The notes beneath the pieces were generated by a model, which did not search any database, was not told the DNA's origin, and was given only the letters and a program-made list of their open reading frames with translations. Source: a virus. Taken from it: a DNA stretch of 27,287 nt. Below are positions 9,564 through 27,287 of the stretch, in pieces. The position numbers were made by a program, and so were the translations under genes. The first letter of the stretch is position 1, and each line of letters starts with the position of its first letter. The stretch is from positions 1 to 27,287 of the IMG/VR virus record IMGVR_UViG_3300023223_000989. One strand, written 5' to 3'.

Positions 9564-9564
9564 A

Positions 9565-14876: not shown

Positions 14877-14882
14877 GGTGCA

Positions 14883-14911
14883 ATAATAACCTCAGCATTG
14901 GCTATTGTCAA
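14883..14911 (-). promoter_or_regulatory. Consensus promoter for the RHH regulator and replication unit
   Basis: Minus strand: TTGACA (14911..14906), 17-nt spacer, TATTAT (14888..14883), 6 nt, ATG. This is a near-perfect sigma70-type promoter whose start site would fall at the start codon. Confidence 0.78.
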
Positions 14912-14934
14912 CACTTCCAGGCAATCCCTTGACA
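14906..14934. promoter_or_regulatory. Putative operator: inverted repeat spanning both -35 boxes
   Basis: TTGTCAA (14905-14911) and TTGACAA (14929-14935) are inverted copies separated by 17 bp, each containing the -35 of one divergent promoter. A protein bound to both arms would block both promoters. The ribbon-helix-helix protein encoded next to it is the obvious candidate, but part of the symmetry comes simply from having two -35 boxes. Confidence 0.45.
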
Positions 14935-14957
14935 ACCACCAAGGATAGACTTATTAT
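14929..14957 (+). promoter_or_regulatory. Consensus early promoter for the plus-strand operon
   Basis: TTGACA (14929-14934), 17-nt spacer, TATTAT (14952-14957). The start site would be near 14964, giving a leader of about 30 nt that contains AAAGGGAG. It drives the operon from 14995 to about 20978. Confidence 0.8.
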
Positions 14958-14994
14958 GAAGGTGTAGATTGAAAACAAAAGGGAGATTTTGATT

Positions 14995-15282
14995 GTGAGT
15001 GACCAAATTATATCAACAATATGGAATCCATTTGAAGATAAAAGGCATTATGAAAGAATTAAAAGATTTTTGAAAAATACTGATGCAAAATCTTTTGAAA
15101 TTAATCAATATAAAACTTTAACAGTAGCTATAAAGAATGATGTGGCTGAATACTTTTATCACCCCGGATCATCTATAAAGAAGTCTAATGGGCTAGTTTT
15201 GTCCGATGGTTGCGATGGCGGTTGGGATACGATTGGAGACTGTTTCGATCATAGAGTCAAAAAAAAGGAGGCCAAAGACTAA
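14995..15282 (+). CDS. First early gene, hypothetical
   Basis: A 95-residue protein with a basic helical first half (EDKRHYERIKRFLKNTDAK), a strand (TLTVAIKNDVAEYFYHPG) and a Gly-rich turn (SDGCDGGWDTIGDCFDH) before a Lys-rich tail. The GTG at 14995 is preferred over TTG at 14989 because AGGGAG is 9 nt from the GTG and only 3 nt from the TTG. As the first product from a strong promoter opposite a repressor it could be a Cro-like or host-takeover factor, but no DNA-binding motif is visible. Confidence 0.68.
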   Translation: MSDQIISTIWNPFEDKRHYERIKRFLKNTDAKSFEINQYKTLTVAIKNDVAEYFYHPGSSIKKSNGLVLSDGCDGGWDTIGDCFDHRVKKKEAKD

Positions 15283-15305
15283 ACTAATAAATTTAAGTTG
15301 TGAGA

Positions 15306-15326
15306 GGAGCGGAGTTGGTTTGCTCC
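15306..15326 (+). other. Small hairpin between the first two early genes
   Basis: GGAGC (15306-15310) pairs with GCTCC (15322-15326) around an 11-nt loop in the 74-nt gap. A C run follows rather than a T run, so it is not a standard terminator. It may be an mRNA stability or attenuation element. Confidence 0.3.
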
Positions 15327-15356
15327 CCCCACAAATAAAACACAGGAGAGTGTTAT

Positions 15357-15719
15357 ATGACTAATAATAATGGAAATTTAGAAAAATTGCAGCAGAGGAA
15401 CCGGGTTAGAATGACGAGATCCCCTCAGAGGATACAGGATATGATCGACATAGGGGTTGAGGATCTTGATACTCAATACGAGAGAGAAATTGCAAAAGAT
15501 GAGGTTCTAACAAAATTCCAGCCTCATGAAAAAGGGTTTTTTGAAAGAGGATCTGTCTTCCAGATACACAATTATATTTTAAGCATTATGAATAGGAAAA
15601 CAACTCATCGTAATAATGTCTTGCAATTCGTTTCAGAACTATACGGATCTGCGGATTTCAGGAAAGGGGCGATGTTTGGTCTTGGCGGTGCATTTTCTAC
15701 GAGAGTAGTTTCAAAATAA
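15357..15719 (+). CDS. Hypothetical early protein
   Basis: A 120-residue basic protein, largely helical, with a Gln/Arg-rich N-terminus (EKLQQRNRVRMTRSPQRIQD), a central acidic helix and a Gly-rich C-terminus (GAMFGLGGAFSTRVVSK). There are no Cys pairs or membrane segments. The ribosome-binding site AGGAGAG lies about 8 nt before the ATG. The family is not recognised. Confidence 0.68.
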   Translation: MTNNNGNLEKLQQRNRVRMTRSPQRIQDMIDIGVEDLDTQYEREIAKDEVLTKFQPHEKGFFERGSVFQIHNYILSIMNRKTTHRNNVLQFVSELYGSADFRKGAMFGLGGAFSTRVVSK

Positions 15720-15729
15720 GGGAGTGAAT

Positions 15730-15942
15730 ATGAAAACAGACATATGTGATCCAGTTTTAACAGAGCCCTCTTATTGGGCACCAGAGGCACCGGAGGTTAT
15801 ACAGACAGAGTGTGAGTGCGAGGCATTGGTTCCACCAGAGGATGCACGTCAATGCAAGTCTTGTGGGGAGGTCAATTGTGAAGAGTGTGACAACGATTAC
15901 AATGGGGAATGTCGTGTGTGTTATCAAAAGGAGATTCACTAG
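15730..15942 (+). CDS. Small zinc-binding protein (cross-brace-like Cys array)
   Basis: A 70-residue acidic protein with CxxC pairs at C42/C45, C50/C53 and C61/C64 plus an earlier C28/C30, the spacing expected of a small RING/B-box or treble-clef zinc module. The first 40 residues are Pro/Glu rich. The start is ATG at 15730: GGGAG lies 5 nt upstream, overlapping a GTG at 15724 that is therefore unlikely to be used. The partner is unknown. Confidence 0.7.
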   Translation: MKTDICDPVLTEPSYWAPEAPEVIQTECECEALVPPEDARQCKSCGEVNCEECDNDYNGECRVCYQKEIH

Positions 15943-15980
15943 GTTGAAATCTCGTGGGTGTTATGAAAAGGAGCTTAAAG

Positions 15981-16298
15981 ATGGGAATTGATCTTGATAT
16001 TACTGAGGGGAAGTGGGAACAGGAAATGTATCTAGATAATCGTGGTACGGAATTAGACGAATGTCAGGGGTTGGGACCAATATGGGCACTTAGCGGGGAC
16101 CACGGACCATTTTTGTCTACGCACAAAGATAATGCCATAGCCACCCTCTGCGTCCCCCAGTTCAAGGTGCTTGCTGATGAATCTGACAAATTAATCGATA
16201 GACTTATTTCAGAAAAATCTACACTAAATGTTGATGGACTTTTGGTTTCTCTTATGGAACTTAAATCTAGGATAAAGGAGCTTAAAAATGACGCCTGA
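15981..16298 (+). CDS. Hypothetical early protein
   Basis: A 105-residue acidic protein. The N-terminal half has a GLGPIWALSGDHGPFLSTHK stretch rich in Gly, His and aromatics, and the C-terminal half is a helical hairpin (DKLIDRLISEK, LVSLMELKSRIKELK). The start at 15981 is set by AAGGAG with 7-nt spacing; upstream in-frame GTG/ATG codons sit before or inside that site. It overlaps the next gene by 11 nt. The family is not recognised. Confidence 0.66.
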   Translation: MGIDLDITEGKWEQEMYLDNRGTELDECQGLGPIWALSGDHGPFLSTHKDNAIATLCVPQFKVLADESDKLIDRLISEKSTLNVDGLLVSLMELKSRIKELKNDA

Positions 16299-16482
16299 TT
16301 TTGATCCCGATAAATTGCCAAGACTAGAGACCGAGACGTTAAGTCTCCGAATCGGGTGCGATAAGCAACTGAGAGTGTATTTTAGGCTTGATGCTGGCGA
16401 GCCTTGGTTTAGTGGGGTCCAACTTCCGAAAGAGGATCTTCCAGCGATTGGCCGCTTCATTCGGGAGGTTTATGGTGAGTGA
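16288..16482 (+). CDS. Small hypothetical early protein
   Basis: A 64-residue protein with a beta-rich centre (LRVYFRLDAGEPWFSGVQL) and a C-terminal helix (LPAIGRFIREVYGE). Its leader AAGGAGCTTAAAAATG almost copies the leader of the preceding gene (AAGGAGCTTAAAGATG). It overlaps both neighbours by 11 nt. The family is unknown. Confidence 0.66.
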   Translation: MTPDFDPDKLPRLETETLSLRIGCDKQLRVYFRLDAGEPWFSGVQLPKEDLPAIGRFIREVYGE

Positions 16483-16825
16483 GCTTAAATGTAGCAAATG
16501 CTTGGGCCCCGATTGGTTTTATTGTGACGTGAGATTTGCGAGTTTTGACCCAGTACTTTGTTATGACTGCAACGACTCGATTAAGGGAGCACAGATGAAA
16601 TCATCTCTAGAGAGCAGCCAAGAGTGCCCGCTGAGGAGATTAGTGGTGAGTGATGGGGCAAGATTTGAATTTGGGGTTGATTCAACAGACCTTGAAAATC
16701 TAAAGGTTGGCGGTAACACGGATGATGCTATTGCTTTACGCGAGCTTAGTTTGAAATTCAATAAACTAATCGATCTGTTGATCCAGTACAGAGATGACGA
16801 TCTTCAAAGGTCGCGACGCCGATGA
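16472..16825 (+). CDS. Zinc-ribbon protein with a possible internal translation start
   Basis: A 117-residue protein. The N-terminus carries C7xxC10, C18 and C30xxC33 (CSKC ... CYDC), a zinc ribbon. The remainder (about 42-117) is a separate helical domain ending in an Arg-rich tail (LQRSRRR). The start is ATG 16472 or GTG 16475, with GGGAGG just upstream; the longer frame from 16388 runs inside the previous gene. An internal ATG at 16595 has its own AAGGGAG at 5-nt spacing and would give the 76-residue C-terminal domain alone. The stop overlaps the YopX gene by 4 nt. Confidence 0.68.
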   Translation: MVSELKCSKCLGPDWFYCDVRFASFDPVLCYDCNDSIKGAQMKSSLESSQECPLRRLVVSDGARFEFGVDSTDLENLKVGGNTDDAIALRELSLKFNKLIDLLIQYRDDDLQRSRRR

Positions 16826-17328
16826 ATAGGGAGATTAAGTTTAGGGGGAAAAGAAAAAACAAATATAACTTGCCAGATGGAGTAGATTTATCTGAGTTTC
16901 CACATGATTATGGAAAAGAAAAATGGGTATATGGGGATCTTGTATGGGGCCAAGTTGATCATTACTTTATAGTCAATCTTTACAGTGAATTTCCGGATTG
17001 CCCAGCCAGAAACACAACCTTTGAGGAGGTTTACAAGGAAACCCTAGACCAATACACAAATAAACTTTGTCAGGACGAATACGAGCTTTATGAAGATGAT
17101 CTGGTTAGTGTTGATTTTTTTAAAATCTCTTTAGGTCAAATCGTTTTTGAAAAGTTGAAGTTTAGTCTTAAGTGGTGGGTACCAGAATCAAAAAGACCGG
17201 CTGTTTACGGCAGAAAAGAAATTGTCACAGGAAGTTTTCAATATATGGATTTATCAGATTGTCGATCTGAATATATAAAGCGCCTAGGTAATACAACCGA
17301 TAATCTCGAACTATTGGAAGCAAGATGA
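16822..17328 (+). CDS. YopX-family phage protein
   Basis: A 168-residue YopX-domain protein. It starts NREIKFRGKRKNK, followed by KWVYGDLVWGQ, then the LDQYTNKLCQDEYELYEDDLV segment that corresponds to the family's T-V-G-Q-Y-T-G ... I-Y-E-G-D-I-V, and closes with KRLGNTTDNLELLE like the usual IGN-x-x-ENPELL ending. YopX proteins are frequent in phage early operons and have no established function. It overlaps the zinc-ribbon gene and the exonuclease gene by 4 nt each, so it is translated with the recombination genes. Confidence 0.86.
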   Translation: MNREIKFRGKRKNKYNLPDGVDLSEFPHDYGKEKWVYGDLVWGQVDHYFIVNLYSEFPDCPARNTTFEEVYKETLDQYTNKLCQDEYELYEDDLVSVDFFKISLGQIVFEKLKFSLKWWVPESKRPAVYGRKEIVTGSFQYMDLSDCRSEYIKRLGNTTDNLELLEAR

Positions 17329-18293
17329 CCAAGGCTGAGATAGAAGCGCAACAAAAGCGCGAGGAATGGCTTTCTAGACGAAAATCTGGAATAGGAGCCA
17401 GCGATTCGCCTAATATTCTTGATCTTACCAATTGGGGAAGCGCCTTGAGTGTCTACCTGGATAAAATCGGGGAGGGTGAGGAATTTGAGCAGACGGAACG
17501 GATGGAAATTGGGCTTGATATTGAAGAGGTTATAGTAAAGATATTCAAAAAACGCACAAAGAAACAGGTATATCGGATATTTAAAGAGATCTGGAATAAA
17601 GACCACTTGTATTTATTCGCCACACCGGATGGGCGTATAATCGGTGAAAATGCTGGTATAGAGTGCAAGAATATTGGGATCTATAAAAAAGAAGAGTGGG
17701 AAGAGGAAAGAGACGGCAAGACAATCGGAAAGATCCCAGACAAATACATGATCCAATGCCAACATAGTATGTTAGTTACTGGATATGACAAATGGTATCT
17801 AGCGGCTTTATTTGGGGGAAATAAATTTGAGATACGCGAAGCTATTAGGGATCAAGAATTAATTGATATATTTTTGCCGAAATTATATTCGTTTTGGCAC
17901 GATAATGTATTAAATAGGGTCCCTCCACCCGCACAAAGCAATGACGGAAGCATATTGATAGGGAAGTTTCCTGAAGGCGTGGAAGAAGAACCACCACTAA
18001 AACTAGGGCCGGAAGCACAAGATCTAGTGAATCAATACAAGAATGCTTCAGAACTGGAAAAGAAGTACAAAAAACAAAAAGAGGAGGCATCAAATAGACT
18101 CAAGCAGAAATTGGGTGATAATAAGTTTGGATGGACCGGAGATCATTCGCTAAGCTGGTCTCGGTGGGATACCCAAAGGATCGATAGCGCAAAGCTAAAA
18201 GAACTCTACCCATCGGCCTATAAGGAGTGTTTGAAGGTATCGAAATCAGGACGGTTAAATATATCGGAGATAAAGGAGCAAAAAAATGACTAA
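17325..18293 (+). CDS. YqaJ-type phage exonuclease (lambda-Exo-like fold)
   Basis: Predicted 5'-3' double-strand exonuclease that makes single-stranded ends for annealing-type recombination. In 322 residues: RKSGIGASDSPNIL (19-32), GLDIEEVI with the first acidic ligand (E67/E68), LFATPDGRI (D102), IECKN (E113, K115; the D-(D/E)-x-K core of the PD-(D/E)XK nucleases) and YMIQCQHSMLVTG (Q144, Q146, H147). The C-terminal third has a charged coiled coil (about 238-265) and is longer than a minimal YqaJ domain. The putative annealing protein follows with an 8-nt overlap, forming a Red-like pair. Confidence 0.9.
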   Translation: MTKAEIEAQQKREEWLSRRKSGIGASDSPNILDLTNWGSALSVYLDKIGEGEEFEQTERMEIGLDIEEVIVKIFKKRTKKQVYRIFKEIWNKDHLYLFATPDGRIIGENAGIECKNIGIYKKEEWEEERDGKTIGKIPDKYMIQCQHSMLVTGYDKWYLAALFGGNKFEIREAIRDQELIDIFLPKLYSFWHDNVLNRVPPPAQSNDGSILIGKFPEGVEEEPPLKLGPEAQDLVNQYKNASELEKKYKKQKEEASNRLKQKLGDNKFGWTGDHSLSWSRWDTQRIDSAKLKELYPSAYKECLKVSKSGRLNISEIKEQKND

Positions 18294-19182
18294 AGACATG
18301 GAAAAAACAGATACATCAAGTTTGAAGGCTAAGATGGTGGAGAAAAACGAAACGGTAGTGGGATCGGTAATTCCAATACAAAACGAATTTCCTAACAATT
18401 CACCTATTTTGTCGTCTGAAAACGACGCAATTCTTGATCAAAACAAACTTTCGGTACAAGTAGAGGCAGAAAAAAGCAAAGCAGTGGCAGAAATACAGGC
18501 CAGCCTTATCATGGCTCAGAAGTTTCCGAGAAATGAGAGTGTGGCCTTTGCAAAGATGGCTAGGTCACTGGATCGAGTGAATTTTGCCAAGAACTGTTTG
18601 TATGCGTTTCCGAGAGGAGGTCGTACGATTGAAGGACCCGGTATTGTCTTAGCTAGAGAGTTCGCACGATGTTGGGGAAATATGCGCTATGGGATCACAA
18701 TCATCCACGAGACAGAGGATGACAGAACTATTGAAGGTTGGGCATGGGATCTCGAGACAAACGTTCATACAGCCGCCCAAGCAACGTTTGCTAAACTTAT
18801 TTACAGAAAAGCACAGGGATGGATCAAGCCCGATGAGCGTGACTTGAGAGAATTAAGTAATAAACACGGTTCTTTGTGTGTCAGAAACGCGATCCTACAG
18901 CTTATACCCCAAGACATTATCGATGATTGTGTTATTAAGGCAAAATCTGTAGCAAAAAATGGTGTCGATCCAAAAAATATGAAACAGCAACGAGCAGGAA
19001 TCATCAATCTGTTTGATCCGTTCGGGATATCGGCTTCTGATTTAGAAGAATATATAGGCACAAAGTCAGATAATTGGACCCCCGATATGATTACCAAGCT
19101 AAATGGTATTGCAAATGGCCTAAAAGATGGGAACATCTCACGCGATGAGATCCTTAAAAAAGATAATAAAGGAGATAATTAA
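18286..19182 (+). CDS. Putative single-strand annealing or recombination protein
   Basis: A 298-residue protein. The first 60 residues are polar and probably disordered. The core includes IQASLIMAQKFPRNESVAFA (about 70-89), YAFPRGGRTIEGPGIVLARE (106-125), CWGNMRYGITI, WAWDLETN and LSNKHGSLCVRNAILQLIPQ. I have seen this core in phage proteins encoded beside YqaJ exonucleases, usually left as hypothetical. By synteny it occupies the place of RecT/Bet/Erf. The annealing role is inferred; it is not an evident RecT or Rad52 by motif. Its start overlaps the exonuclease gene by 8 nt, with GGAG upstream. Confidence 0.68.
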   Translation: MTKDMEKTDTSSLKAKMVEKNETVVGSVIPIQNEFPNNSPILSSENDAILDQNKLSVQVEAEKSKAVAEIQASLIMAQKFPRNESVAFAKMARSLDRVNFAKNCLYAFPRGGRTIEGPGIVLAREFARCWGNMRYGITIIHETEDDRTIEGWAWDLETNVHTAAQATFAKLIYRKAQGWIKPDERDLRELSNKHGSLCVRNAILQLIPQDIIDDCVIKAKSVAKNGVDPKNMKQQRAGIINLFDPFGISASDLEEYIGTKSDNWTPDMITKLNGIANGLKDGNISRDEILKKDNKGDN

Positions 19183-19183
19183 T

Positions 19184-20164
19184 ATGAACACATCAACTCA
19201 AGTAATAAAATTGGACGTACCTGAATTAAACGGGATAGAGGCGTCAAAATCAACTCAGATAAAGGCAATATTTGAACCAATGTCAGAAATGCTTTTGGAG
19301 TTTGAGACTCAATATTTTGAAGTCATAACAGAGGCTAAAGAAGAAATTACTAAAGATGTGACTGTGAAGGCGAAAAAAATACGCCTAGCTATAGGAAAGG
19401 TTAGGATTGAAACGGAGAAACTACGCAAGGGACAAAAAGAAGAATACTTGAGGGCTGGAAAAGCCATTGATAGCGTCAGCAATATACTGAAATGGGCTAT
19501 TACAGATAAAGAAGACAAGTTAAAAGAAATTGAAAATTATTTTGAAATACAAAAAGAGAAAGCCCGGAAGCTGTTGGCATCACAACGACAAGAAGAGTTG
19601 AGTCGCTACATAGAGGTTGGCTATCAAGCAACAAATTTAGGGGACATGAATCCTGACGTTTGGGAAATCTACCTCCAAGCAAAGAAAAACGAATACAACG
19701 ATAAAGTAGTGGCTGAAAAAAAAGCTGAAGAAAAACGTATTAAGAAAGAAAAAGAAGCTGAGATAGAACGTACTAGAATAATGGAAGAAAATGAACGGCT
19801 TAGGAAAGAAGCTGAAACACGCAGAATAGAAGAACAACAAAACAGAGCGATCCAAGAGGCAAAAGAAATAAAATCTCGGGAAGAGAAGGAAAAACTTGAA
19901 ATTAAGTTGAGAGAAGAAAAAAAGGAAAAAGAACAACTTCAAAAACAAATAGACGTAGAGAAAGTTGTTGACAACACAACAATAGAAGAGAATTTATCCC
20001 TAAAACAGTGGATCATGATTGCTTATAATACCGGGTATATGAACGGACACGATGATGGCTGTAACGGAAACTACGATGAGAATATTTCCAAATATGGCAT
20101 TGAAGGAGCTAATGCTAATAAAGCAGATGCCATTATAAAACGATATGAAAAGGCACAGAAATGA
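19184..20164 (+). CDS. Long coiled-coil protein of the recombination operon (DUF1351-like)
   Basis: A 326-residue protein. Residues about 20-150 contain regularly spaced Lys/Glu helices (TVKAKKIRLAIGKVRIETEK, then SNILKWAITDKEDKLKEIEN) resembling DUF1351-type phage proteins that accompany annealing proteins. Residues about 170-265 form a continuous Glu/Lys/Arg coiled coil. The last 55 residues form a separate domain (LKQWIMIAYNTGYMNGHDDG). The ATG at 19184 follows GGAG; an open frame upstream overlaps the previous gene and lacks a ribosome-binding site. A scaffold or nuclease-regulator role is a guess. Confidence 0.72.
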   Translation: MNTSTQVIKLDVPELNGIEASKSTQIKAIFEPMSEMLLEFETQYFEVITEAKEEITKDVTVKAKKIRLAIGKVRIETEKLRKGQKEEYLRAGKAIDSVSNILKWAITDKEDKLKEIENYFEIQKEKARKLLASQRQEELSRYIEVGYQATNLGDMNPDVWEIYLQAKKNEYNDKVVAEKKAEEKRIKKEKEAEIERTRIMEENERLRKEAETRRIEEQQNRAIQEAKEIKSREEKEKLEIKLREEKKEKEQLQKQIDVEKVVDNTTIEENLSLKQWIMIAYNTGYMNGHDDGCNGNYDENISKYGIEGANANKADAIIKRYEKAQK

Positions 20165-20376
20165 CCGGAAAATTCATCGAGAAAAGCGGAGAGAAAATAT
20201 TTCTGACGACTCGGGAATGTCGGATGATAGAAATTTTGAAGTCTGTAGATGATGTGATAAAGACATCTTATGGCGTAGTAAAGGAAAGTGGTGATATTTA
20301 TCCGTATTCATGGTCAGAGTTCAGTTTTGTTGACGATATAAAGGAAGTACTAGAAGAATTAAGATCAACTAAATGA
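20161..20376 (+). CDS. Small hypothetical early protein
   Basis: A 71-residue protein coupled by an ATGA overlap to the coiled-coil gene. A basic N-terminus (GKFIEKSGEKIFLTTRE) leads to helices (RMIEILKSVDDVIK) and an acidic C-terminal helix (DDIKEVLEELRSTK). There are no Cys or membrane motifs. The family is unknown. Confidence 0.64.
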   Translation: MTGKFIEKSGEKIFLTTRECRMIEILKSVDDVIKTSYGVVKESGDIYPYSWSEFSFVDDIKEVLEELRSTK

Positions 20377-20449
20377 CTTTAGAGTTACATTTATAATCAT
20401 AAGAAAAGGAGAGTGCCGTTATGCAAAGAAAAACGAACAGTACGAGGCT

Positions 20450-20713
20450 ATGATAGAGGGCATGATCGATTGCGCTGATGTAAATATCAGTCACAGATGT
20501 AGGGAGGAGCTAAAAAACGTCTTAGGCTCACTTTTTATCGATGTCGTTAATCAGGGCAAACAAATGGGGCCAAATTTTTCGCCCGGTGATAAGGACACAG
20601 AGATAACGTTTGTTTTTGCAATGGTATTTAAAAGTACTGTTGTTATTGAAGGCAAAGAAGCAACGGTTATTGAGCAACAAAGAAGACTGTTATCGCCTAT
20701 AAGTTTAAATTAA
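20450..20713 (+). CDS. Hypothetical early protein, probably shortened by a one-base frameshift at its start
   Basis: As written, the ATG at 20450 gives 87 residues (MIEGMIDCADVNISHRCREE onward) but has no well-spaced ribosome-binding site. In the same frame, protein-like codons extend upstream (AKKNEQYEA) to an ATG at 20421 that has AAAAGGAG 9 nt before it but is one base out of frame. ATG-GCAAAG would restore MAKKNEQYEAM; the sequence has ATGCAAAG. From 20421 the present frame gives only MQRKTNSTRL, ending TGA at 20453 and overlapping the ATG at 20450, so the gene may still be expressed by re-initiation. The function is unknown; mid-protein strands (EITFVFAMVFKSTVVIEGKE) suggest a compact alpha/beta fold. 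Confidence 0.62.
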   Translation: MIEGMIDCADVNISHRCREELKNVLGSLFIDVVNQGKQMGPNFSPGDKDTEITFVFAMVFKSTVVIEGKEATVIEQQRRLLSPISLN

Positions 20714-20714
20714 A

Positions 20715-20978
20715 ATGGGATTCATGGAACTAGACAGAAGTGACGTCTTAAAATTGGAATTTAAGGAGGGCACGTATCACTGGGAAACTAACGGAATAAA
20801 ACAACGGGCCTTTGTATACCGGGGATCGATGGGGTTGAGGGTACATGCAGAAAAATTAGGTCCAGATCATTGGCAAACATTGGGAATTGACGAAACAAGG
20901 AAGCTTCGTACTGCGCTTTTAGGACCGTCTGTCGAAAATATTACGGTTGAGTTTAGTGATAGGAAAGGTAAAAAATGA
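20715..20978 (+). CDS. Small hypothetical early protein
   Basis: An 87-residue protein that ends the first plus-strand operon, 1 nt after the previous stop. It is beta-rich (LKLEFKEGTYHWETNGIKQR, LRVHAEKLGPDHW) with a Lys-rich tail. An in-frame ATG at 20724 is an alternative start, and neither has a good ribosome-binding site. Its stop is 4 nt from the stop of the convergent minus-strand gene, with no terminator between. The family is unknown. Confidence 0.64.
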   Translation: MGFMELDRSDVLKLEFKEGTYHWETNGIKQRAFVYRGSMGLRVHAEKLGPDHWQTLGIDETRKLRTALLGPSVENITVEFSDRKGKK

Positions 20979-20982
20979 GTGG

Positions 20983-21504
20983 CTAATTTATGCCGTCTAG
21001 GAGTTCCACAGTTTCGGGTAAGACTTCGTCGATAGAGTTTAAATAGTCATCCAAATAAAAGTTAGGCTCACAACCTTCGATAACAGCATCTTCAATTATA
21101 AAAGCTCTATTCTCCTCAGATATTACCAAGCTACCATACACCCATTTATCTTCATTCTGTTGTTCATTACAAATAAACCTTCTCTCGCCCTTAAATTTAA
21201 AGGGCCTCTTAAACTTCTTACCTCTTTCCTCTATCTCTTTTTCTACTTTTTTCTCTTCTTTTTCTACTGCCTCATTTATCTTGGCGAGGCAAGAAGAAGC
21301 CCTAGCACATTCGTAAGGTGACTTACAGTTATCACAATAAGACGTAAATTCAGAAAGGACTTTCAATCTGTGATTACAAGGTCCGCAAAGCGGGCTTTTA
21401 CCCTCAAAAGACAAAGCCTTTCCCTTATATTTAAAAGCAATTTGACCGCACTCGACGCAGCCCTGTATTTTCCCCTCTTTTGTTACGATGTGTGGGGATG
21501 TCAT
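20983..21504 (-). CDS. Double zinc-finger protein with a YopX-like C-terminal segment
   Basis: A 173-residue protein. The N-terminal half has C16xxC19 with C40xxC43 (CVEC ... CGPC) and a second set, C57xxC60, C66, C72. Residues about 74-95 form a Lys/Glu coiled coil. The C-terminal half begins PFKFKGERRF, then KWVYGSLV and EVLPETVELLDGIN, the start and end pieces of a YopX domain, without the middle block seen in the gene at 16822. The start at 21504 is set by the ATGA overlap; ATG 21516 is possible. It may be a fusion of a zinc module with a shortened YopX domain. Confidence 0.72.
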   Translation of the reverse strand: MTSPHIVTKEGKIQGCVECGQIAFKYKGKALSFEGKSPLCGPCNHRLKVLSEFTSYCDNCKSPYECARASSCLAKINEAVEKEEKKVEKEIEERGKKFKRPFKFKGERRFICNEQQNEDKWVYGSLVISEENRAFIIEDAVIEGCEPNFYLDDYLNSIDEVLPETVELLDGIN

Positions 21505-21962
21505 CGAGATTTCCATCCATCTCGCACAGCTTCCTCAACAGTGTCATAGTCCATTATTTCAACTGGATTATGAATTTCAACATATACAATCCCCATATTT
21601 GTGTCTTTAAGCTTTGGATCAATCCATAGTTGACCGACCATATAAGATTTTCTGTCTTCAGATAACCTTATATTTATAACCTCACAAAAATCAGGTAAAT
21701 CAGGGCCTATATTCCCATTAATAAATTCGACATCTTGTTCTTCACTGCATGCATTACGATTACGATCAGGGTTGCAACCAAAAGTCCTACACATATAAGG
21801 TGTGGGGCATTGTTTTATCTGACATTCTAAGACAGATTTCTTTATCTTTTCCTTCCTCTTTATGGCGTCAGCTTCTCTCTCCGCCAAATCTTTCTTCTGA
21901 GCTTCAGCAATTTTCGACGCATATTCTTGATATTTTGGGTGACAACTAAGATGTAAATTCAC
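21501..21962 (-). CDS. Hypothetical Cys-containing protein, C-terminus related to its neighbour
   Basis: A 153-residue protein. The start is GTG at 21962, with GGAGGGCGGT 5 nt upstream. The N-terminal region is helical and charged with a Cys cluster (VLECQIKQCPTPYMC, then GCNPDRNRNAC). The C-terminal 60 residues form a beta domain ending YDTVEEAVRDGWKSR. That ending matches the neighbouring protein's YESILHAVMDGWRAV, suggesting tandem paralogous domains. It overlaps both neighbours by 4 nt. The function is unknown. Confidence 0.68.
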   Translation of the reverse strand: MNLHLSCHPKYQEYASKIAEAQKKDLAEREADAIKRKEKIKKSVLECQIKQCPTPYMCRTFGCNPDRNRNACSEEQDVEFINGNIGPDLPDFCEVINIRLSEDRKSYMVGQLWIDPKLKDTNMGIVYVEIHNPVEIMDYDTVEEAVRDGWKSR

Positions 21963-22273
21963 ACCGCCCTCCACCCATCCATAACTGCGTGCAGGATGGA
22001 CTCATAAAAAAGAGCGGGGTAGTTGTTATCATGAATATACAAAACTAAAAACGGAAATGGTTTAGCATTTCCAGTTTGATTGTGTGTGATATAAAAACCT
22101 TCGTCTCCATCTTTATAAGTCGGATTAACCACGAGGGTACCAATAAAGTCTTTTTTTTGTTCTATCCTTTTTAGTGCATGAAGATTTCCAATAATCCTTG
22201 TAGTTGATCTTGAAATTTCCTCACCGACTTCGTAGGTATGTTCTTTCGGATGTTTTCCCCACAACCTAAACAT
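21959..22273 (-). CDS. Hypothetical protein, paralogous C-terminal domain
   Basis: A 104-residue protein. ATG 22273 is chosen because GGAG lies 7 nt upstream; a TTG at 22291 would place the start before that site. It is beta-rich (FIGTLVVNPTYKDGDEGFYI, then FPFLVLYIHD) and ends in FYESILHAVMDGWRAV, like the end of the downstream neighbour. It overlaps the upstream gene by 8 nt and the downstream gene by 4 nt. The family is unknown. Confidence 0.66.
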   Translation of the reverse strand: MFRLWGKHPKEHTYEVGEEISRSTTRIIGNLHALKRIEQKKDFIGTLVVNPTYKDGDEGFYITHNQTGNAKPFPFLVLYIHDNNYPALFYESILHAVMDGWRAV

Positions 22274-22469
22274 TTTGAGACTCCGCTTCAAGCACCCAAG
22301 TATGCTCAGGGTCGTCTATTTTATGAATCTCGATATGAGGTTGTTTATTAAACACAATACTACTCTTCACGAGCCACCCCCCAGGCACCTTAAGTCGTTC
22401 CAATGTGTCTAAATATCCTTCAGCTTTTTCTATGCTAATGATCCTCCAATTTCTCGGAAATTTTACCAT
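22266..22469 (-). CDS. Small hypothetical protein
   Basis: A 67-residue protein. It begins MVKFPRNWRIISIEKAEGYL and continues with GGWLVKSSIVFNKQPHIEIH, a compact alpha/beta pattern with conserved-looking Trp residues. ATG 22469 overlaps the stop of the upstream gene (TGATG) and has GGGAG 8 nt before it. The family is not recognised. Confidence 0.66.
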   Translation of the reverse strand: MVKFPRNWRIISIEKAEGYLDTLERLKVPGGWLVKSSIVFNKQPHIEIHKIDDPEHTWVLEAESQNV

Positions 22470-22957
22470 CACTCACTCTCCCTAACCGACCTATCAATCC
22501 CCAAAAGCATATCGATCCCCTCTTCTAGTAAAAACATCCTTTTAACCCCACGTAGCCGATTAGATACGAATATACAATCAACCCGGCTCCTAACCTCTGG
22601 GTCTATCCGATAATAAGTCCCTTGCTCATCCGCATATCTATCCTCCCTATCTTCAGGACGAAACCTCCCTACACTCTTACAAGGCCCGTCTGTCTCCTGA
22701 CCCACAAGGTAACGTGTAATAACAAGAGAAAGGGCCGCGTTGACCACATCCTCTATCGATGCATAGTTTCTATCGACCTTGATCCAGTCCAATTTAGCCC
22801 TATAGAAGCTATTAACGATAAAATGGGATCTAAACCTACGTTTCTGGCTATGTTTTTTTTTAGCTGGGTCAGGGTGTTGCGCAACCGGATACTTCTCGGC
22901 AGCGGTCTTTGTATCAAACGGGTCTAGGTTTAAATCTGAAAAACTAGATTTTTTCAC
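22469..22957 (-). CDS. Hypothetical protein, possible ribbon-helix-helix-like centre
   Basis: A 162-residue basic protein. The N-terminal 45 residues are polar. About 40-80 (HFIVNSFYRAKLDWIKVDRN followed by SIEDVVNAALSLVITRYL) has a strand-helix-helix pattern that could be ribbon-helix-helix DNA binding. The last part is charged and helical. The GTG at 22957 is chosen because GGTGGAGG sits 5 nt upstream; an ATG at 22972 lies inside that site. The role is unknown; a regulator of this minus-strand block is a guess. Confidence 0.64.
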   Translation of the reverse strand: MKKSSFSDLNLDPFDTKTAAEKYPVAQHPDPAKKKHSQKRRFRSHFIVNSFYRAKLDWIKVDRNYASIEDVVNAALSLVITRYLVGQETDGPCKSVGRFRPEDREDRYADEQGTYYRIDPEVRSRVDCIFVSNRLRGVKRMFLLEEGIDMLLGIDRSVRESE

Positions 22958-22959
22958 GC

Positions 22960-23082
22960 TTACCTCCACCATAAAGCATCGATACGTACAGGAAAATAGC
23001 CAAGCTGTGGCAGAGGATACAGAATATCCACATCGTCACATAAAGAAAGGTCATTGTGGTTCCCATAAGCAGACTCTACCAT
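22960..23082 (-). CDS. Small 40-residue protein heading the minus-strand accessory operon
   Basis: The frame from ATG 23082 reads MVESAYGNHNDLSLCDDVDI, then LYPLPQLGYF, and stops at 22962..22960 just before the GTG of the next gene, containing that gene's ribosome-binding site. That tight join supports a real gene. AGGTG is 5 nt upstream of the ATG. A second frame over the same bases (23066..22944) encodes a 40-residue very hydrophobic peptide. One of the two is probably coding; I favour this one. No known family. Confidence 0.5.
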   Translation of the reverse strand: MVESAYGNHNDLSLCDDVDILYPLPQLGYFPVRIDALWWR

Positions 23083-23217
23083 TCCAACACCTATAAATCC
23101 ACATTAATCCGGTCTATCAAATACGGCCGTTCATGAAACAGAGATTGAAACCGGCTTTTATACTCCTGGCATCGTATGACATATCTTCTAATAAATCCTG
23201 TAAATAGTCTCCGGTTT

Positions 23218-23226
23218 TGCTATAAT
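23218..23226 (+). promoter_or_regulatory. Extended -10 promoter (TGC-TATAAT) for the second early operon
   Basis: A TGn plus perfect TATAAT at 23221-23226 lies 26 nt before the ATG at 23253. The -35 region (CTGTAA or TGTAAA near 23198-23204) is poor, as is usual with an extended -10. Unlike the late genes, this transcript has a leader with AGGAAAGGG. Confidence 0.62.
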
Positions 23227-23252
23227 ATCTCTATAACTCATAGGAAAGGGAA

Positions 23253-23687
23253 ATGGCTAATGTAAGCAATAGGATGACGACCGACGAGTATAGGGCGCTT
23301 CAGAAGGTCGCTAGTAAGCGTAAGTACAGAAATATTCCCAATGTATGGCAGGGGAAGTGGAAAGGAAAGACCGTTTCGATAAAATTTGACTCAGAGGGCG
23401 AAATGAGGTGGGGTGTGGGGCTTATACGCAAAGAAAACGCTGGTCTTATTAAGAATTTAGAGTTTCAGAAGAAATTTGAGTTGGTTCCTAAGACTAAGGA
23501 CGAGAGAAGCTTAAGCTATATTGCTGATGGCGCTTACTACGATCCTCTTATAAAACAGAGTCTCCTAAAGAAGATCAACGTTGTCGCTGATTACAAGGGT
23601 TATCCCACTCCTATGTATATTGCCAAGCGAAAGATGTTTAAGTACCAGAATCCTGATATTTTGTTCATAGAGATTAAAGAGAGTTGA
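23253..23687 (+). CDS. DUF1064-family phage protein (putative nuclease)
   Basis: A 144-residue protein of the DUF1064 family, common in phage early regions and thought to have a PD-(D/E)XK-like nuclease fold. Motifs: KYRN near 24-27, IKFDSEGEMRW (43-53; D46, E50), a GLIKNLEFQKKFELVP strand, SYIADGAYY (D92), VVADYKGYPTP (D113, K115) and YIAKRKMF. The E...D...D-x-K set would be the active site. It is the first gene after the extended -10 promoter. Biological role unknown; Holliday-junction or end-processing activity has been suggested for relatives, not shown here. Confidence 0.85.
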   Translation: MANVSNRMTTDEYRALQKVASKRKYRNIPNVWQGKWKGKTVSIKFDSEGEMRWGVGLIRKENAGLIKNLEFQKKFELVPKTKDERSLSYIADGAYYDPLIKQSLLKKINVVADYKGYPTPMYIAKRKMFKYQNPDILFIEIKES

Positions 23688-23731
23688 TAGATATCCTTCT
23701 ATCTTACCTCAAAAAATAGCTATATACTTAG

Positions 23732-23760
23732 TTGACGATCTTCTATTATAGTGTTACTAT
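23732..23760 (+). promoter_or_regulatory. Promoter TTGACG-17-TACTAT (TGn)
   Basis: TTGACG (23732-23737), 17-nt spacer ending TGT, TACTAT (23755-23760). An ATG at 23767 begins 6 nt later, where a leaderless start would fall. A second in-frame ATG at 23791 has a strong ribosome-binding site. Confidence 0.68.
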
Positions 23761-23790
23761 GGGTTTATGTTGAAGGAAGGGAGTGACAAA

Positions 23791-24015
23791 ATGAAGAAAG
23801 TGATCCATTACTCTTATATACGGGAAAATAGGCTCGGCGGTACTATTACAGCCAGTGTATGTGGCATAAACGCTCTGACCGACGATGGTATGAACTTGGG
23901 GCTCTCTGCCGACGTAACCTGCAAAAGATGCGAGGCTTATCTTAAGACCACGATAGGAAAGCTCGTTAAAGAAAGGTCAGAAAAACTCAGAAACAAACAA
24001 AAGGTTGAAGACTAA
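23791..24015 (+). CDS. Small Cys-containing protein
   Basis: A 74-residue basic protein with a His-Tyr start (IHYSY), C24 in TASVCGIN and C44xxC47 in DVTCKRCEAYL, a pattern shared by small phage proteins that probably bind one zinc. The C-terminus is a Lys/Glu helix. ATG 23791 has AAGGGAG 7 nt upstream and is preferred; leaderless initiation at 23767 would add MLKEGSDK. Function unknown. Confidence 0.7.
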   Translation: MKKVIHYSYIRENRLGGTITASVCGINALTDDGMNLGLSADVTCKRCEAYLKTTIGKLVKERSEKLRNKQKVED

Positions 24016-24036
24016 AAACAAAGGGAGATGATGGGA

Positions 24037-24363
24037 ATGGATAAAGACGAAATTACCGAGGTTAAAGGTTTGTCTCCCGGTATCTACTATGAAAAATCAC
24101 CAAATCAATACGCAAACGAATCAAAAGGGGAACTAGACTTCTCATACTGGCACGTAGAAAATCCCAGAAATAACGTAATGTTACACGCAAGAATTGGATT
24201 AAACCCAAAGACTTATAAACTAGCTTTGATGTGGGGAGTGTCAGACTCAATAGTTAGAGGGATGAGAAGATTCTCTAGTCAAAAAGACGCGGAGGAGTAT
24301 ATTAAAAAAATGTTTGACACCTATAAATTTCATTGGATGAAGCCCGAATGTGTAGACAGATAA
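24037..24363 (+). CDS. Hypothetical early protein
   Basis: A 108-residue protein. Residues about 20-60 (KSPNQYANESKGELDFSYWH) are polar with aromatic residues, then IGLNPKTYKLALMWGV and a C-terminal helix (SQKDAEEYIKKMFDTYKFHW). The ATG at 24037 is 9 nt from GGGAG; upstream in-frame ATGs at 24028 and 24031 are too close to that site. Its stop lies 2 nt before the first CRISPR-repeat-like unit. The family is unknown. Confidence 0.66.
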   Translation: MDKDEITEVKGLSPGIYYEKSPNQYANESKGELDFSYWHVENPRNNVMLHARIGLNPKTYKLALMWGVSDSIVRGMRRFSSQKDAEEYIKKMFDTYKFHWMKPECVDR

Positions 24364-24365
24364 TC

Positions 24366-24443
24366 AATTTCCCCACGATTGTGGGGATGAACCTGGAATA
24401 CGATGGTGGCAAGGAAGTTTCCCCATTGATATGGGGATGAAGA
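24366..24443 (+). repeat. Pair of type I-E CRISPR-repeat-like hairpin units (candidate repeat-mimic RNA)
   Basis: Unit 1 (about 24366-24393) contains TTT CCCCAC GATT GTGGGG ATGAACC; unit 2 (about 24416-24443) contains TTT CCCCAT TGAT ATGGGG ATGAAGA. Each forms a 6-bp stem (7 with the flanking T-A) and a 4-nt loop, followed by ATGAA, the same plan as E. coli-type I-E repeats (CCCCGC GCCA GCGGGG ATAAACCG). The stem's sixth pair changes from C-G to T-A between units, a compensatory change that supports selected RNA structure. The 22-nt intervening sequence and 50-nt period are shorter than a real I-E array (about 61), and no cas gene is present. The units fill an unusually long gap in a tightly packed operon. 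Alternatives: mRNA stability or translation-control hairpins. Confidence 0.62.
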
Positions 24444-24461
24444 ACTAAGGGAGTGATGGGA

Positions 24462-24968
24462 ATGAACGATAGAAGACGTTACGAAGATTTTTGTAAAGAT
24501 TATGGAGAACAAATGGCCGAGGACATATTTTTGTCGCTTTATGGAGATATCAAGTTAGAAACCATAGATATATGGGGAAAGCATAGACTTGACGCAGTAA
24601 ACGTAGAATTTATGGCTACTATTTATGATGATAAAGGAAATGAATTATGCGAGGTCTCTTGCAGAGATGGGAACTGGGCCGGTAGCGAGATTTTAGATTA
24701 TGGGGATATTGTCCAGCCTGATAGATATACATCCATCATACGTCTCGATATTGACGACGTGGTTTTAAATGGCCAGACAAAAAGAGATCAAGAAATAATA
24801 AGAAATTTCCCAACCTGGAAGAAACAAAAATGGTTTATTGAGATGGAGCAAAAGATTTCTTATGACTTCCATTTTGAACCGACCGAAAAAATATATACCT
24901 ATTGGAAAGGTAAGGCAAATTCTAAAGGGTTAAAAATTGTTAGTGAGACTATCAAGATTGAGAATTAG
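24462..24968 (+). CDS. Hypothetical early protein downstream of the hairpin pair
   Basis: A 168-residue acidic protein: a helical start (RYEDFCKDYGEQMAEDIFLS), a beta-rich middle (VEFMATIYDDKGNELCEVSC), and a C-terminal half with IIRLDIDDVVL and aromatic helices. ATG 24462 is 8 nt from GGGAG, and that leader follows unit 2 of the repeat pair directly, so its translation could be affected by folding there. The family is unknown. Neighbourhood raises an anti-defence possibility but nothing in the protein shows it. Confidence 0.66.
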   Translation: MNDRRRYEDFCKDYGEQMAEDIFLSLYGDIKLETIDIWGKHRLDAVNVEFMATIYDDKGNELCEVSCRDGNWAGSEILDYGDIVQPDRYTSIIRLDIDDVVLNGQTKRDQEIIRNFPTWKKQKWFIEMEQKISYDFHFEPTEKIYTYWKGKANSKGLKIVSETIKIEN

Positions 24969-24984
24969 AAAGGAGATGATGGAA

Positions 24985-25248
24985 ATGAACAACCAAAGAC
25001 GCAAAGAACTGGAAAGAGCTATTATTGATCTTGAATCGGCGAGAGAAACGATTGAATGCATATGCGATGAAGAAAGTAGAGATTATGAAGAGCTCTCGGA
25101 AGACGAGACAGAATCCGAAGAGATGCAGGATCTGGATCAAATAATTACGGATTTGTACGACATGGAAGCTCGAATTTCAAATATTAAAAAAGAACTGCTA
25201 GAGATAATCATGGAAGAACAATGCCAAAAAACAAACTTAAAAACATAA
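24985..25248 (+). CDS. Small acidic helical protein
   Basis: An 87-residue, strongly acidic protein, almost all helix (RKELERAIIDLESARETIEC, then ELSEDETESEEMQDLDQIIT), likely a coiled-coil dimer or a DNA-mimic-like surface by charge. ATG 24985 has GGAG 9 nt upstream; the longer open frame overlaps the previous gene. The leader resembles those of the two preceding genes. The family is unknown. Confidence 0.66.
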   Translation: MNNQRRKELERAIIDLESARETIECICDEESRDYEELSEDETESEEMQDLDQIITDLYDMEARISNIKKELLEIIMEEQCQKTNLKT

Positions 25249-25412
25249 GCAACGCAGAGATCGAGGTCGCGCTTGAGAAGGCTCGAAGTGGTCCTGGTGC
25301 CGCTAAGTTACTCGGGGTTAGCTTCCAAGCTCTTTATAAGCAAATAAAGAAACGCGGAAAGACTTTGGGCCCTACTCTTAGGGATCTAACTAGTGAAGCA
25401 CCTAAACCCTGA
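25221..25412 (+). CDS. Small Fis-type helix-turn-helix protein
   Basis: A 63-residue basic protein. Residues about 26-45 (GAAKLLGVSFQALYKQIKKR) form a Fis/HTH_8-type helix-turn-helix, preceded by a helix (AEIEVALEKAR). It is little more than this motif, so it probably dimerises and binds DNA. It overlaps the previous gene by 28 nt; GGAAG precedes the ATG. It may regulate this operon; target unknown. Confidence 0.74.
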   Translation: MPKNKLKNISNAEIEVALEKARSGPGAAKLLGVSFQALYKQIKKRGKTLGPTLRDLTSEAPKP

Positions 25413-25437
25413 TATACTGTTTCTTGAGACGTAACTT

Positions 25438-25677
25438 ATGAAAAAACCCTACAGTGGCACAGAAGAAGATATGCCTGAATCAGGCCGAATGATTGAGGTA
25501 CAGTCTAAAGACCTTGAATGGGTGCTTACAGAGGCCATGCTCGCTATTCAAGGGGTAGAGTTAAGTCCTGATAAGAAAGAGAGAGTTAAAGAGTCTCTAC
25601 AGGGGTTTTTGAAGGATATAGAGAATCTTAGGGAGGTTACTGGGGGTAAGACTAAAGTGGTGGTTGAAAATCGCTAA
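25438..25677 (+). CDS. Hypothetical protein ending the second early operon
   Basis: A 79-residue protein with an acidic N-terminus (SGTEEDMPESGRMIEVQSKD) and a helical remainder (LEWVLTEAMLAIQGVELSPD, then RVKESLQGFLKDIENL). A TATACT box at 25413-25418 lies 19 nt upstream, but no -35 is clear, and the ribosome-binding site is weak. It converges with the minus-strand gene ending at 25698. The family is unknown. Confidence 0.62.
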   Translation: MKKPYSGTEEDMPESGRMIEVQSKDLEWVLTEAMLAIQGVELSPDKKERVKESLQGFLKDIENLREVTGGKTKVVVENR

Positions 25678-25697
25678 GTCCAGTAGTCCTATAATTA

Positions 25698-25970
25698 TCA
25701 ACCCTTATAGCCCCAGTCATCATCGTCATCATGACCCCCGCAGTCTTTCTTTCTCCAGTAATTAAAAGCATCTTCTTTTGTAGGGATACATTGTTTGCAA
25801 ACGTAGGTGTCAGAATCCAACAAAGAAGATTTAGGTATTTTTTTATAACCCCACTCTCTCCGAAATTGATTTGTACAAATCACACATCTATGCCAAAAAA
25901 ATATGGGATAAAATCGTCTAATGCGGCTTCTTAACGATATGTCATCTGCTTCTTCTTGAGTTCTTTTCAC
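25698..25970 (-). CDS. Small zinc-binding protein with an Asp-rich tail
   Basis: A 90-residue protein with a basic N-terminus (RSRIRRFYPIFFWHR), C29xxC32 and C58xxC61 (CVIC ... CKQC) forming a likely zinc ribbon, then CGGH (C77, H80) and a run of five Asp before WGYKG. The GTG start at 25970 has GGAGG 6 nt upstream inside the end of the preceding gene. It is the last gene of the right-hand minus-strand operon. Function unknown. Confidence 0.7.
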   Translation of the reverse strand: MKRTQEEADDISLRSRIRRFYPIFFWHRCVICTNQFRREWGYKKIPKSSLLDSDTYVCKQCIPTKEDAFNYWRKKDCGGHDDDDDWGYKG

Positions 25971-25972
25971 CG

Positions 25973-26266
25973 CTAACCTCCGTTCGATCTACAGAGTGCT
26001 TGAAGCTCAAGCTTGAACTCTTCGCAGTTGTAAACGGAATGGATGAATTGATCCAATATTTCTTTTCGACATTCCTTCCTAATCCTAATTATGATTCCGG
26101 CCATTATTCGGGCATTCATATCCAAGACGTACCCATCAAAAACACATATGGGAAGCTCCTCGTTAACTATTTCACTCCGGCATCTTTCTATATACTCTTG
26201 TATTTTTTGATCCATAACCCCGACGATTTCCTGAACTATTTCGTCCTCGTCTATGTATGTTTTCAC
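25973..26266 (-). CDS. Small helical hypothetical protein
   Basis: A 97-residue protein, mostly helical (DEIVQEIVGVMDQKIQEYIE, then IIIRIRKECRKEILDQF). The GTG start at 26266 overlaps the upstream stop (GTGA) and has GGAGGTGA just before it. The family is unknown. Translationally coupled at both ends. Confidence 0.66.
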   Translation of the reverse strand: MKTYIDEDEIVQEIVGVMDQKIQEYIERCRSEIVNEELPICVFDGYVLDMNARIMAGIIIRIRKECRKEILDQFIHSVYNCEEFKLELQALCRSNGG

Positions 26267-26508
26267 CCGTCACCTCCGTTTTCTTCATTGGGTACCCAGA
26301 CAGCTCTACCGATATACTCCATATTCTCAAATTTAACCCTCAGGTACGCAGCTCCCGGCCCAGGGTCCTCGGGACAAGAGATGAATCCCATAGCGCCCCA
26401 TGACAAGGGTTCTGTCACAAGCATAAAGCAACCAGCAAACATGGCACCCTTATGTCCCTCCGGGTCAATTTGGACAACGTCCCCGACTTTTAATTCTCGT
26501 TTAATCAT
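26263..26508 (-). CDS. Small beta-barrel-like hypothetical protein
   Basis: An 81-residue protein. It begins MIKRELKVGDVVQIDPEGHK, then MFAGCFMLVTEPLSWGAMGF and YLRVKFENMEYIGRAVW: an SH3-like small barrel pattern (KVGDVVQIDP at the start). Similar short proteins are common in phage accessory regions with no known role. ATG 26508 is favoured over GTG 26514 because GAGGAG lies 5 nt before the ATG. Confidence 0.7.
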   Translation of the reverse strand: MIKRELKVGDVVQIDPEGHKGAMFAGCFMLVTEPLSWGAMGFISCPEDPGPGAAYLRVKFENMEYIGRAVWVPNEENGGDG

Positions 26509-26510
26509 AT

Positions 26511-26636
26511 TCACTCCTCTGATTCAAGCGCATTTTTTGGGGGTCTTTTCGATTCTTTTACCGGCAATGCAATACATCTCCCACGATTAAGGCAAGACTT
26601 AGGCGAGACACAAAGTTTATGTGGGCAGTTGTTCAT
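26511..26636 (-). CDS. Very small Cys/His protein
   Basis: A 41-residue protein with C4, H6, C9, C15 and C21 (NNCPHKLCVSPKSCLNRGRC), a possible single zinc site, followed by a Lys/Pro-rich tail. ATG 26636 overlaps the stop of the membrane-protein gene (ATGA). A longer frame from 26783 is open but runs through that gene and is not credible. Confidence 0.6.
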   Translation of the reverse strand: MNNCPHKLCVSPKSCLNRGRCIALPVKESKRPPKNALESEE

Positions 26637-26815
26637 TTTTTCTGAACCCACATACCAATTATCAAAGCAAGGACTATCACTACCAATAAAGGCCCCCAAA
26701 AAGGTACCAAAACCCACCACCAAGACCAAGTAATCAGATGTGTTAGCTTGAGTGTTACAAAAATTATTAAAAGGACCGTACATAATCCCCTGGAGGTGTT
26801 AGTGTTATTTGCCAT
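26633..26815 (-). CDS. Small membrane protein
   Basis: A 60-residue protein with two closely spaced hydrophobic helices: about 12-30 (CTVLLIIFVTLKLTHLITW) and about 33-55 (WVLVPFWGPLLVVIVLALII), joined at SWWW. Short phage proteins with LKLTxxITWSWWWVL are widespread and of unknown role in the host inner membrane. AAGGGG lies 4 nt before the ATG. The C-terminus is cytoplasmic-like (WVQKK). It overlaps the downstream gene by 4 nt. Confidence 0.78.
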   Translation of the reverse strand: MANNTNTSRGLCTVLLIIFVTLKLTHLITWSWWWVLVPFWGPLLVVIVLALIIGMWVQKK

Positions 26816-26889
26816 CAGACCCCTTTCTCACATACTGAACCCCGTGGGCTAGGATTTTTTTCATTACTTTTGATCTCGCTCTTGGTCAT
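26805..26889 (-). pseudogene. Tiny gene split by a frameshift in an A7 run
   Basis: ATG 26889 overlaps the stop of the upstream gene (ATGA) and reads MTKSEIKSNEK, then out of frame to TGA at 26815. The adjoining frame reads ILAHGVQYVRKGSDGK to TAA at 26805. The join is a run of seven A on the minus strand (26861..26855); with six A the frame gives one 27-residue protein, MTKSEIKSNEKILAHGVQYV and on. The downstream half alone could start at ATG 26864 (MKKILAHG). Indel, transcriptional slippage or sequence error are all possible. Confidence 0.5.
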
Positions 26890-27113
26890 CTTTTGCCACT
26901 CATCTTATATGGCTTTCCACCATCGCTTATTACCCACTTTGTTTTTCCATCGAATCTTTTGGCATAAAATTTAGTACCCGGCATTCCGACACTAAATTTT
27001 CTTAGGGCTTTTAAGCTTTTAAAAAACCTAAAACATTCCGGTGGTTTTGGAAATAAGAACTTTCTGAGAGGGTCATGCCACCGTACTACGTAGCCGTATT
27101 TTTTGTTAAACAT
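26886..27113 (-). CDS. Small basic hypothetical protein
   Basis: A 75-residue, strongly basic protein rich in Phe, Lys and Gly (FNKKYGYVVRWHDPLRKFLF, then KFYAKRFDGKTKWVISDGGK), beta-rich. ATG 27113 overlaps the end of the upstream gene and has GGTGA 5 nt before it; ATGs further upstream lie inside that gene. The family is unknown. Confidence 0.64.
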   Translation of the reverse strand: MFNKKYGYVVRWHDPLRKFLFPKPPECFRFFKSLKALRKFSVGMPGTKFYAKRFDGKTKWVISDGGKPYKMSGKR

Positions 27114-27287
27114 CTCCGTCACCATCCCAAACATACCGACGCCCATGCTTTGTGATTTCTTCGGGGATTTCTGGTTTTGGGGCGTTTATTAGGTTAATCT
27201 CTCCAGATGCCCATGATGCGATATTTCCATCTTTAGTTTTAATTAAGTGACCGTGATCAATACTGCCGTAATATTGATAGGTGTAAT
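27106..27287 (-). CDS. Hypothetical protein, N-terminus beyond the window
   Basis: Partial. 59 codons run from the right edge to TAA at 27108..27106. They read YTYQYYGSIDHGHLIKTKDG, then a segment with ASWASGEINLINAP and a C-terminus RRYVWDGDGDV. The next gene's ATG overlaps the stop. No family recognised and length unknown. Confidence 0.62.
   Translation of the reverse strand, partial: YTYQYYGSIDHGHLIKTKDGNIASWASGEINLINAPKPEIPEEITKHGRRYVWDGDGDV

Follow-up and report, generated by a model that had tools for sequence, protein, structure and literature searches.

Two type I-E repeat-like hairpins in a phage operon as a candidate tandem RNA anti-CRISPR

Two repeat-like units between phage genes

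Why should a phage carry, between two genes of an operon, a pair of hairpin-forming units resembling the repeats of bacterial type I-E CRISPR (clustered regularly interspaced short palindromic repeats) systems, when no cas gene is recognized among the open reading frames (ORFs) scanned on its 27-kb contig? The question is raised by the IMG/VR virus record IMGVR_UViG_3300023223_000989, a linear 27.3-kb contig whose positions 1 to 27,287 are termed the window here. We propose that the units are probably a phage-encoded tandem mimic of the type I-E repeat, which would act as a decoy in the manner of the RNA anti-CRISPRs (Racrs). The first-pass annotation of this DNA had likewise read them as a candidate RNA anti-CRISPR or repeat mimic, and that reading is partly supported by the results below. 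The elements concerned, with lengths in nucleotides (nt) and base pairs (bp), are:

24364 to 24452, plus strand: intergenic gap of 89 nt holding both units, between the ORFs on either side
24369 to 24394, plus strand: unit 1, putative I-E repeat mimic TTCCCCAC-GATT-GTGGGG-ATGAACCT, with a 7-bp stem including a U-A pair, a 4-nt loop and an 8-nt handle-like tail
24387 to 24394, plus strand: the handle-like 8 nt of unit 1, ATGAACCT, agreeing in 7 of 8 bases with the I-E handle consensus ATGAACCG
24395 to 24416, plus strand: 22-nt interval occupying the spacer position, with the sequence GGAATACGATGGTGGCAAGGAA
24419 to 24444, plus strand: unit 2, putative diverged I-E repeat mimic TTCCCCAT-TGAT-ATGGGG-ATGAAGAA, with 2 mismatches to the consensus pattern

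In their 24-nt form the units read TTTCCCCACGATTGTGGGGATGAA (unit 1, 24368-24391, plus strand) and TTTCCCCATTGATATGGGGATGAA (unit 2, 24418-24441, plus strand), and their starts lie 50 nt apart; the spacing, the 6-bp stem and the 4-nt loop are thus as first annotated, the stem growing to 7 bp once the basal U-A pair is counted. When scanned with the I-E consensus pattern TTCCCCRYNNNNRYGGGGATRAACC, unit 1 (24369-24393) agrees at 25 of 25 positions with 0 mismatches and unit 2 (24419-24443) shows 2 mismatches, and, with up to 3 mismatches allowed, nothing else in the window matches. The number of matches expected by chance per window is 0.02 for the pattern of the first-pass annotation and 0.00 for the I-E consensus pattern; dinucleotide shuffles of the window yielded 0 matches to the latter, and the best stretches in 30 Markov-randomized windows had 4-7 mismatches to the 26-nt form, as against 1 in the real window.

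The two units are 79% identical over 24 nt, with all 18 outer positions the same and 5 of the 6 inner ones changed. Confinement of all 5 differences to the inner 6 of the 24 positions has a chance probability of 1.4e-4, a post hoc figure with the unit bounds chosen on the data. From unit 1 to unit 2 the innermost pair passes from C-G to U-A with pairing kept, and otherwise only the loop is altered within the 24 nt, which bears out the earlier description of a covarying innermost pair within a fixed outer stem followed by an invariant ATGAA. Beyond the ATGAA the tails diverge, being ATGAACCT in unit 1 and ATGAAGAA in unit 2. Such a distribution of changes is what selection on the stem and the handle would be expected to leave.

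Each unit is predicted to fold as a 7-bp stem (6 bp plus the basal U-A pair) with a 4-nt loop, at energies of -12.8 (unit 1) and -11.1 (unit 2) kcal/mol, compared with -15.1 kcal/mol for the E. coli repeat. Both hairpins are predicted with a probability of ~0.9 or higher in transcripts of at least 221 nt, and that of unit 2 at ~0.9 or more in all contexts tried. A search of Rfam returned no match to the units; this null is uninformative because Rfam also missed the obvious I-E units of a second viral contig (L017) and the one in a bacterial contig (L003), both described below.

Both units are intergenic and in the sense orientation of a same-strand operon (23253-25677), and the predicted transcript presents hairpin and then handle, the order of a genuine repeat. 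The first-pass annotation had remarked on the size of the gap: it is indeed larger than most of its neighbors, which measure 10-25 nt, but it spans 89 nt rather than about 100, and another gap of ~100 nt, with a promoter-like site, lies upstream of 23788.

A spacing outside that of ordinary arrays

In register, the interval after the 8-nt handle is 22 nt and the period 50 nt, against a normal I-E period of 61. No pair of I-E units with a period of 45-55 nt was found in 369 gammaproteobacterial genomes, whereas the ordinary period of 58-64 nt accounts for 465 pairs in 7 genomes (185 of the 369 examined); thus, a 50-nt period falls outside the variation observed among ordinary arrays. The features earlier held against a true array, namely the 22-nt interval, the lack of a recognized cas gene and the diverged tail of unit 2, are all present.

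Bacterial and viral relatives of the units

The stem, loop length and handle match those of type I-E repeats, as the first-pass annotation had stated, and do so against the consensus, the arrays of two gammaproteobacterial genomes (G146 and G159) and a repeat of the gammaproteobacterial metagenome-assembled genome HyVt-441. The arrays in G146 and G159 are genuine I-E arrays found via unit 1 by BLAST of the phage DNA against the 369 genomes, and their repeats differ from unit 1 by two loop bases. A perfect copy of the unit 1 25-mer, with the same loop, is present on one contig of the genome collection, that of HyVt-441, between apparent cas8e and cas3 genes, these names being a reading of the ORFs and not profile matches. 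With different loops, the stem and handle recur in 7 of the 24 genomes of the gammaproteobacterial order of HyVt-441, almost always in arrays.

The HyVt-441 locus (L003:1949-2067, DRKN01000123.1) is of interest in its own right. Its repeat core equals unit 1, and its layout between the apparent cas3 and cas8e resembles that of CreR, a type I-E cas-regulating RNA: a solitary I-E repeat is followed by a pseudo-spacer, GTATACACGGTTTG, and then by a degenerate second repeat. The pseudo-spacer matches AAG|GTATATACGGTATG ~45 bp upstream of the repeat. The protospacer adjacent motif of this site is AAG, and the match is broken at positions 6 and 12 alone, whose bases are flipped out in type I-E. It likely specifies a cas autorepression RNA.

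Among the viral contigs of IMG/VR, 43 stretches match the stem-and-handle pattern; arrays aside, many of these have a single repeat or a pair, located in intergenic DNA or at the ends of genes. Two of the repeat-bearing contigs (L028 and L034) encode distant relatives (30-36%) of the TerL protein of the window. A search of viral contigs for abnormally close I-E units, 31-58 nt apart, recovered four contigs. One (L067) is an ordinary array, another (L066:1274-1335) has a pair of units at a spacing of 36 nt, and a third (L065:8316-8459) has three units with spacings of 66 and 52 nt. The fourth (L017:2449-2673, IMGVR_UViG_2900074995_000003) displays five diverged I-E units with periods of 50, 50, 49 and 50 nt, adjoining spanin and endolysin genes. 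A similarity of 79% between its intervals 1 and 2 suggests tandem duplication of a 50-bp unit. When named relatives of this contig were sought, its lysis genes alone matched phages and plasmids, nothing was found in E. coli genomes, and the spanin was absent at E<=1e-20 from the sampled gammaproteobacterial genomes. In an alignment of the two units of the window with these five, pairing is kept in 49 of 49 pair cells and changes on both sides are seen at two inner pairs, while sliding the partner strand lowers the pairing to 43-65%.

As a separate observation, three viral contigs (L005, L036 and L042, minus strand) have in common a pair of I-E units 63 nt apart with differing loops, and a third, degenerate unit 333 nt further on.

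A proposed decoy mechanism

We propose that the operon transcript would bear the two hairpins and that the Cas6e of a host, presumably one with a type I-E system, would bind both. Cas6e would then probably cut 3′ of each stem, at 24386/24387 in unit 1, as predicted from the E. coli type I-E repeat, and at 24436/24437 in unit 2. These cuts are proposed by analogy with RacrIF1, which Cas6f cleaves and which traps both Cas6f and Cas7f, and with RacrIE1 and RacrIE2, inhibitors of a P. aeruginosa I-E system (PMC10651486). They would release a 50-nt RNA resembling a CRISPR RNA (crRNA), composed of an 8-nt handle AUGAACCU, the 22-nt filler with a few pre-stem bases, and a 3′ hairpin, and would leave a hairpin-ended fragment upstream. 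The released RNAs may compete with genuine crRNAs, occupying Cas6e and Cas7/Cascade subunits without guiding Cascade to the phage, and the outcome would be a smaller supply of working Cascade.

A wider extension of this proposal is tentative and rather doubtful: phages might have repeatedly evolved tandem, diversified I-E mimics with a fixed period of ~50 nt, from which Cas6e would yield crRNA-like RNAs with a spacer ~11 nt short. These would produce a truncated, non-targeting Cascade rather than a mere block of Cas6e, and the varied loops would prevent loss by recombination. I-E Cascade still licenses Cas3 when its spacers are 6 or 12 nt shorter, if more slowly or at a reduced rate (PMC7296934), so the 50-nt RNA might fill a short Cascade.

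Several results weigh against the decoy interpretation. The handle of unit 2 is broken (ATGAAGAA), and the covariation test on the small sample of seven aligned units is weak, with 20 of 500 shuffles reaching the observed score. The hairpin of unit 1 has a probability of only ~0.25 in an isolated RNA of 89-101 nt, in which another fold competes with it, although it dominates in longer transcripts. The GATT loop is rare, its sole exact match in the whole genome collection being itself a solitary repeat. No viral relatives were confirmed via the upstream gene, the downstream gene, TerL or phrog_3657, and searches for a host by DNA and spacer matches found none in the 369 gammaproteobacterial genomes (window 7301-27287) or in the 24 genomes searched from one order (window 1-20000).

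Alternative explanations

The leading alternative is a two-repeat mini-array, in which the interval is a real, shortened spacer. Host Cascade would be guided by it to a competing phage or to a gene of the host, as in a trans-acting, CreR-like repression of cas genes. The tolerance of I-E Cascade for spacers 6 or 12 shorter, with Cas3 licensed at a reduced rate (PMC7296934), is compatible with this, as is the fact that, in the sole genome with the identical 25-mer, this sequence is a solitary repeat of CreR-like kind adjoining the apparent cas3 and cas8e. Yet a search of the 22-nt interval against viral genomes, as the first-pass annotation had suggested, gave no exact 20-nt match in the 2.9 million viral contigs of IMG/VR, though absence from a collection is not proof, and its likeness to the spacers of G146 and G159 is no greater than simulation predicts for ~1000 spacers. 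With no viral match, and with the spacer likeness explained by the number searched, a guide role is unsupported; moreover, the repeats are non-identical and not at array spacing, unlike those of known mini-arrays. Hence, we regard a mini-array as unlikely.

Ordinary regulatory or processing hairpins of the mRNA, with the I-E likeness a coincidence, are somewhat less likely still. They could control translation of the downstream gene or protect the upstream mRNA end, and the second hairpin does stand just upstream of the Shine-Dalgarno AAGGGAG and start codon of the downstream gene. However, this Shine-Dalgarno lies outside both hairpins, the same AAGGGAG start region is found on another gene of the operon without hairpins, the ATGAACC handle would have no role there and yet matches type I-E, and no match of such quality arose in any shuffle. 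That the units are the functionless remnant of a decaying array or repeat acquired from a host by recombination seems very improbable. CRISPR repeats do move between hosts and phages, and the handle of unit 2 and the loops have drifted; against this, all the differences spare the outer stem and ATGAA, and the 50-nt period is unlike that of arrays.

Comparison with known systems

The closest parallel to the proposed decoy is offered by the I-E Racrs (RacrIE1 and RacrIE2; Camara-Wilpert et al. 2023, PMC10651486), which are likewise phage-borne intergenic I-E repeats away from cas genes with a matching stem and handle. These two are experimentally proven, in agreement with the statement of the first-pass annotation that solitary phage-borne repeat units can act as RNA anti-CRISPRs, and similar units, solitary or paired, are intergenic in other phage contigs. 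Like Racrs, the units of the window closely match the repeat of a known subtype (0 mismatches in unit 1, 2 in unit 2) and lie between genes of a mobile element with no cas gene recognized among the ORFs scanned. Known Racrs are solitary units, whereas here two diverged units stand 50 nt apart. SRUFinder takes as solitary a repeat with no partial repeat within 100 bp, and its published filter drops candidates with a more than 70% identical partner within that distance. With the 79% identical unit 2 at 50 nt, a two-unit locus of this kind would be missed by the survey that defined Racrs.

The five-unit locus L017, which belongs to no described family, shares the diverged I-E units, the 50-nt period and the changing loops; it differs in having five units with mostly CCCCGC stems, lysis genes of the enterobacterial-phage type and unrelated flanks. 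RNA decoys are a known viral trick; their double, short-spaced form is unusual. Together, the window locus and L017 suggest a tandem, short-spaced class that has been left out of the catalogue of RNA anti-CRISPRs, and, if short crRNA-like RNAs are indeed produced from such units and fill Cascade, their mode of action would be distinct from that of single-repeat decoys.

Virus-borne mini-CRISPR arrays have repeats identical to those of the host and spacers that mostly target related viruses (PMC6858448). In common with them, the window has two repeats around one spacer-like interval and no recognized cas genes, but the repeats differ (79% over 24 nt), the period is 50 and not 61, and the interval is short and without an IMG/VR match. 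CreR adjoins cas genes and has a pseudo-spacer matching a cas promoter (PMC13131331). The window shares with it a repeat followed by a degenerate second repeat, and a locus of this kind (L003) contains the 25-mer of unit 1 unchanged; no cas gene is recognized beside the units.

Genomic context

The contig carries recognizable phage genes, coding for a terminase, a portal, a prohead protease, a RecE-like exonuclease and a Holliday junction resolvase, along with one tRNA-Gln. The operon is presumably of an early type, as judged from its gene content (the Holliday junction resolvase and small unknown proteins). No DNA relatives of the phage were found in INPHARED, and the matches in the host searches overall were only repeats, a partial tRNA, low-complexity stretches or chance. 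The portal protein, searched against 398 genomes of the phylum, gave two uninformative matches at 25-27% identity. The features flanking the units are:

23732 to 23760, plus strand: promoter-like site preceding operon genes 23788-25677, of a kind not above chance in the region
24028 to 24363, plus strand: upstream ORF, 111 amino acids, of no known family, with no match in PHROGs, Pfam or NCBIfam
24453 to 24968, plus strand: downstream ORF, 170-171 amino acids, of no known family, with no match in PHROGs, Pfam or NCBIfam

The sequence AAGGGAG(A)TGATGGGAATG is common to the start regions of two neighboring genes (24021-24044 and 24446-24467), which makes their true start codon uncertain. The same operon codes for a 63-amino-acid Fis-type helix-turn-helix protein (25221-25412, plus strand), with no link shown to the units and a match to Pfam HTH_8 just at the cut-off; anti-CRISPR operons are often regulated by small helix-turn-helix proteins. 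Single-sequence structure prediction of the flanking proteins gave a confidence too low for fold comparison, and the product of the downstream ORF shows a weak similarity (23%) to a protein of the Caulobacter phage CcrPW.
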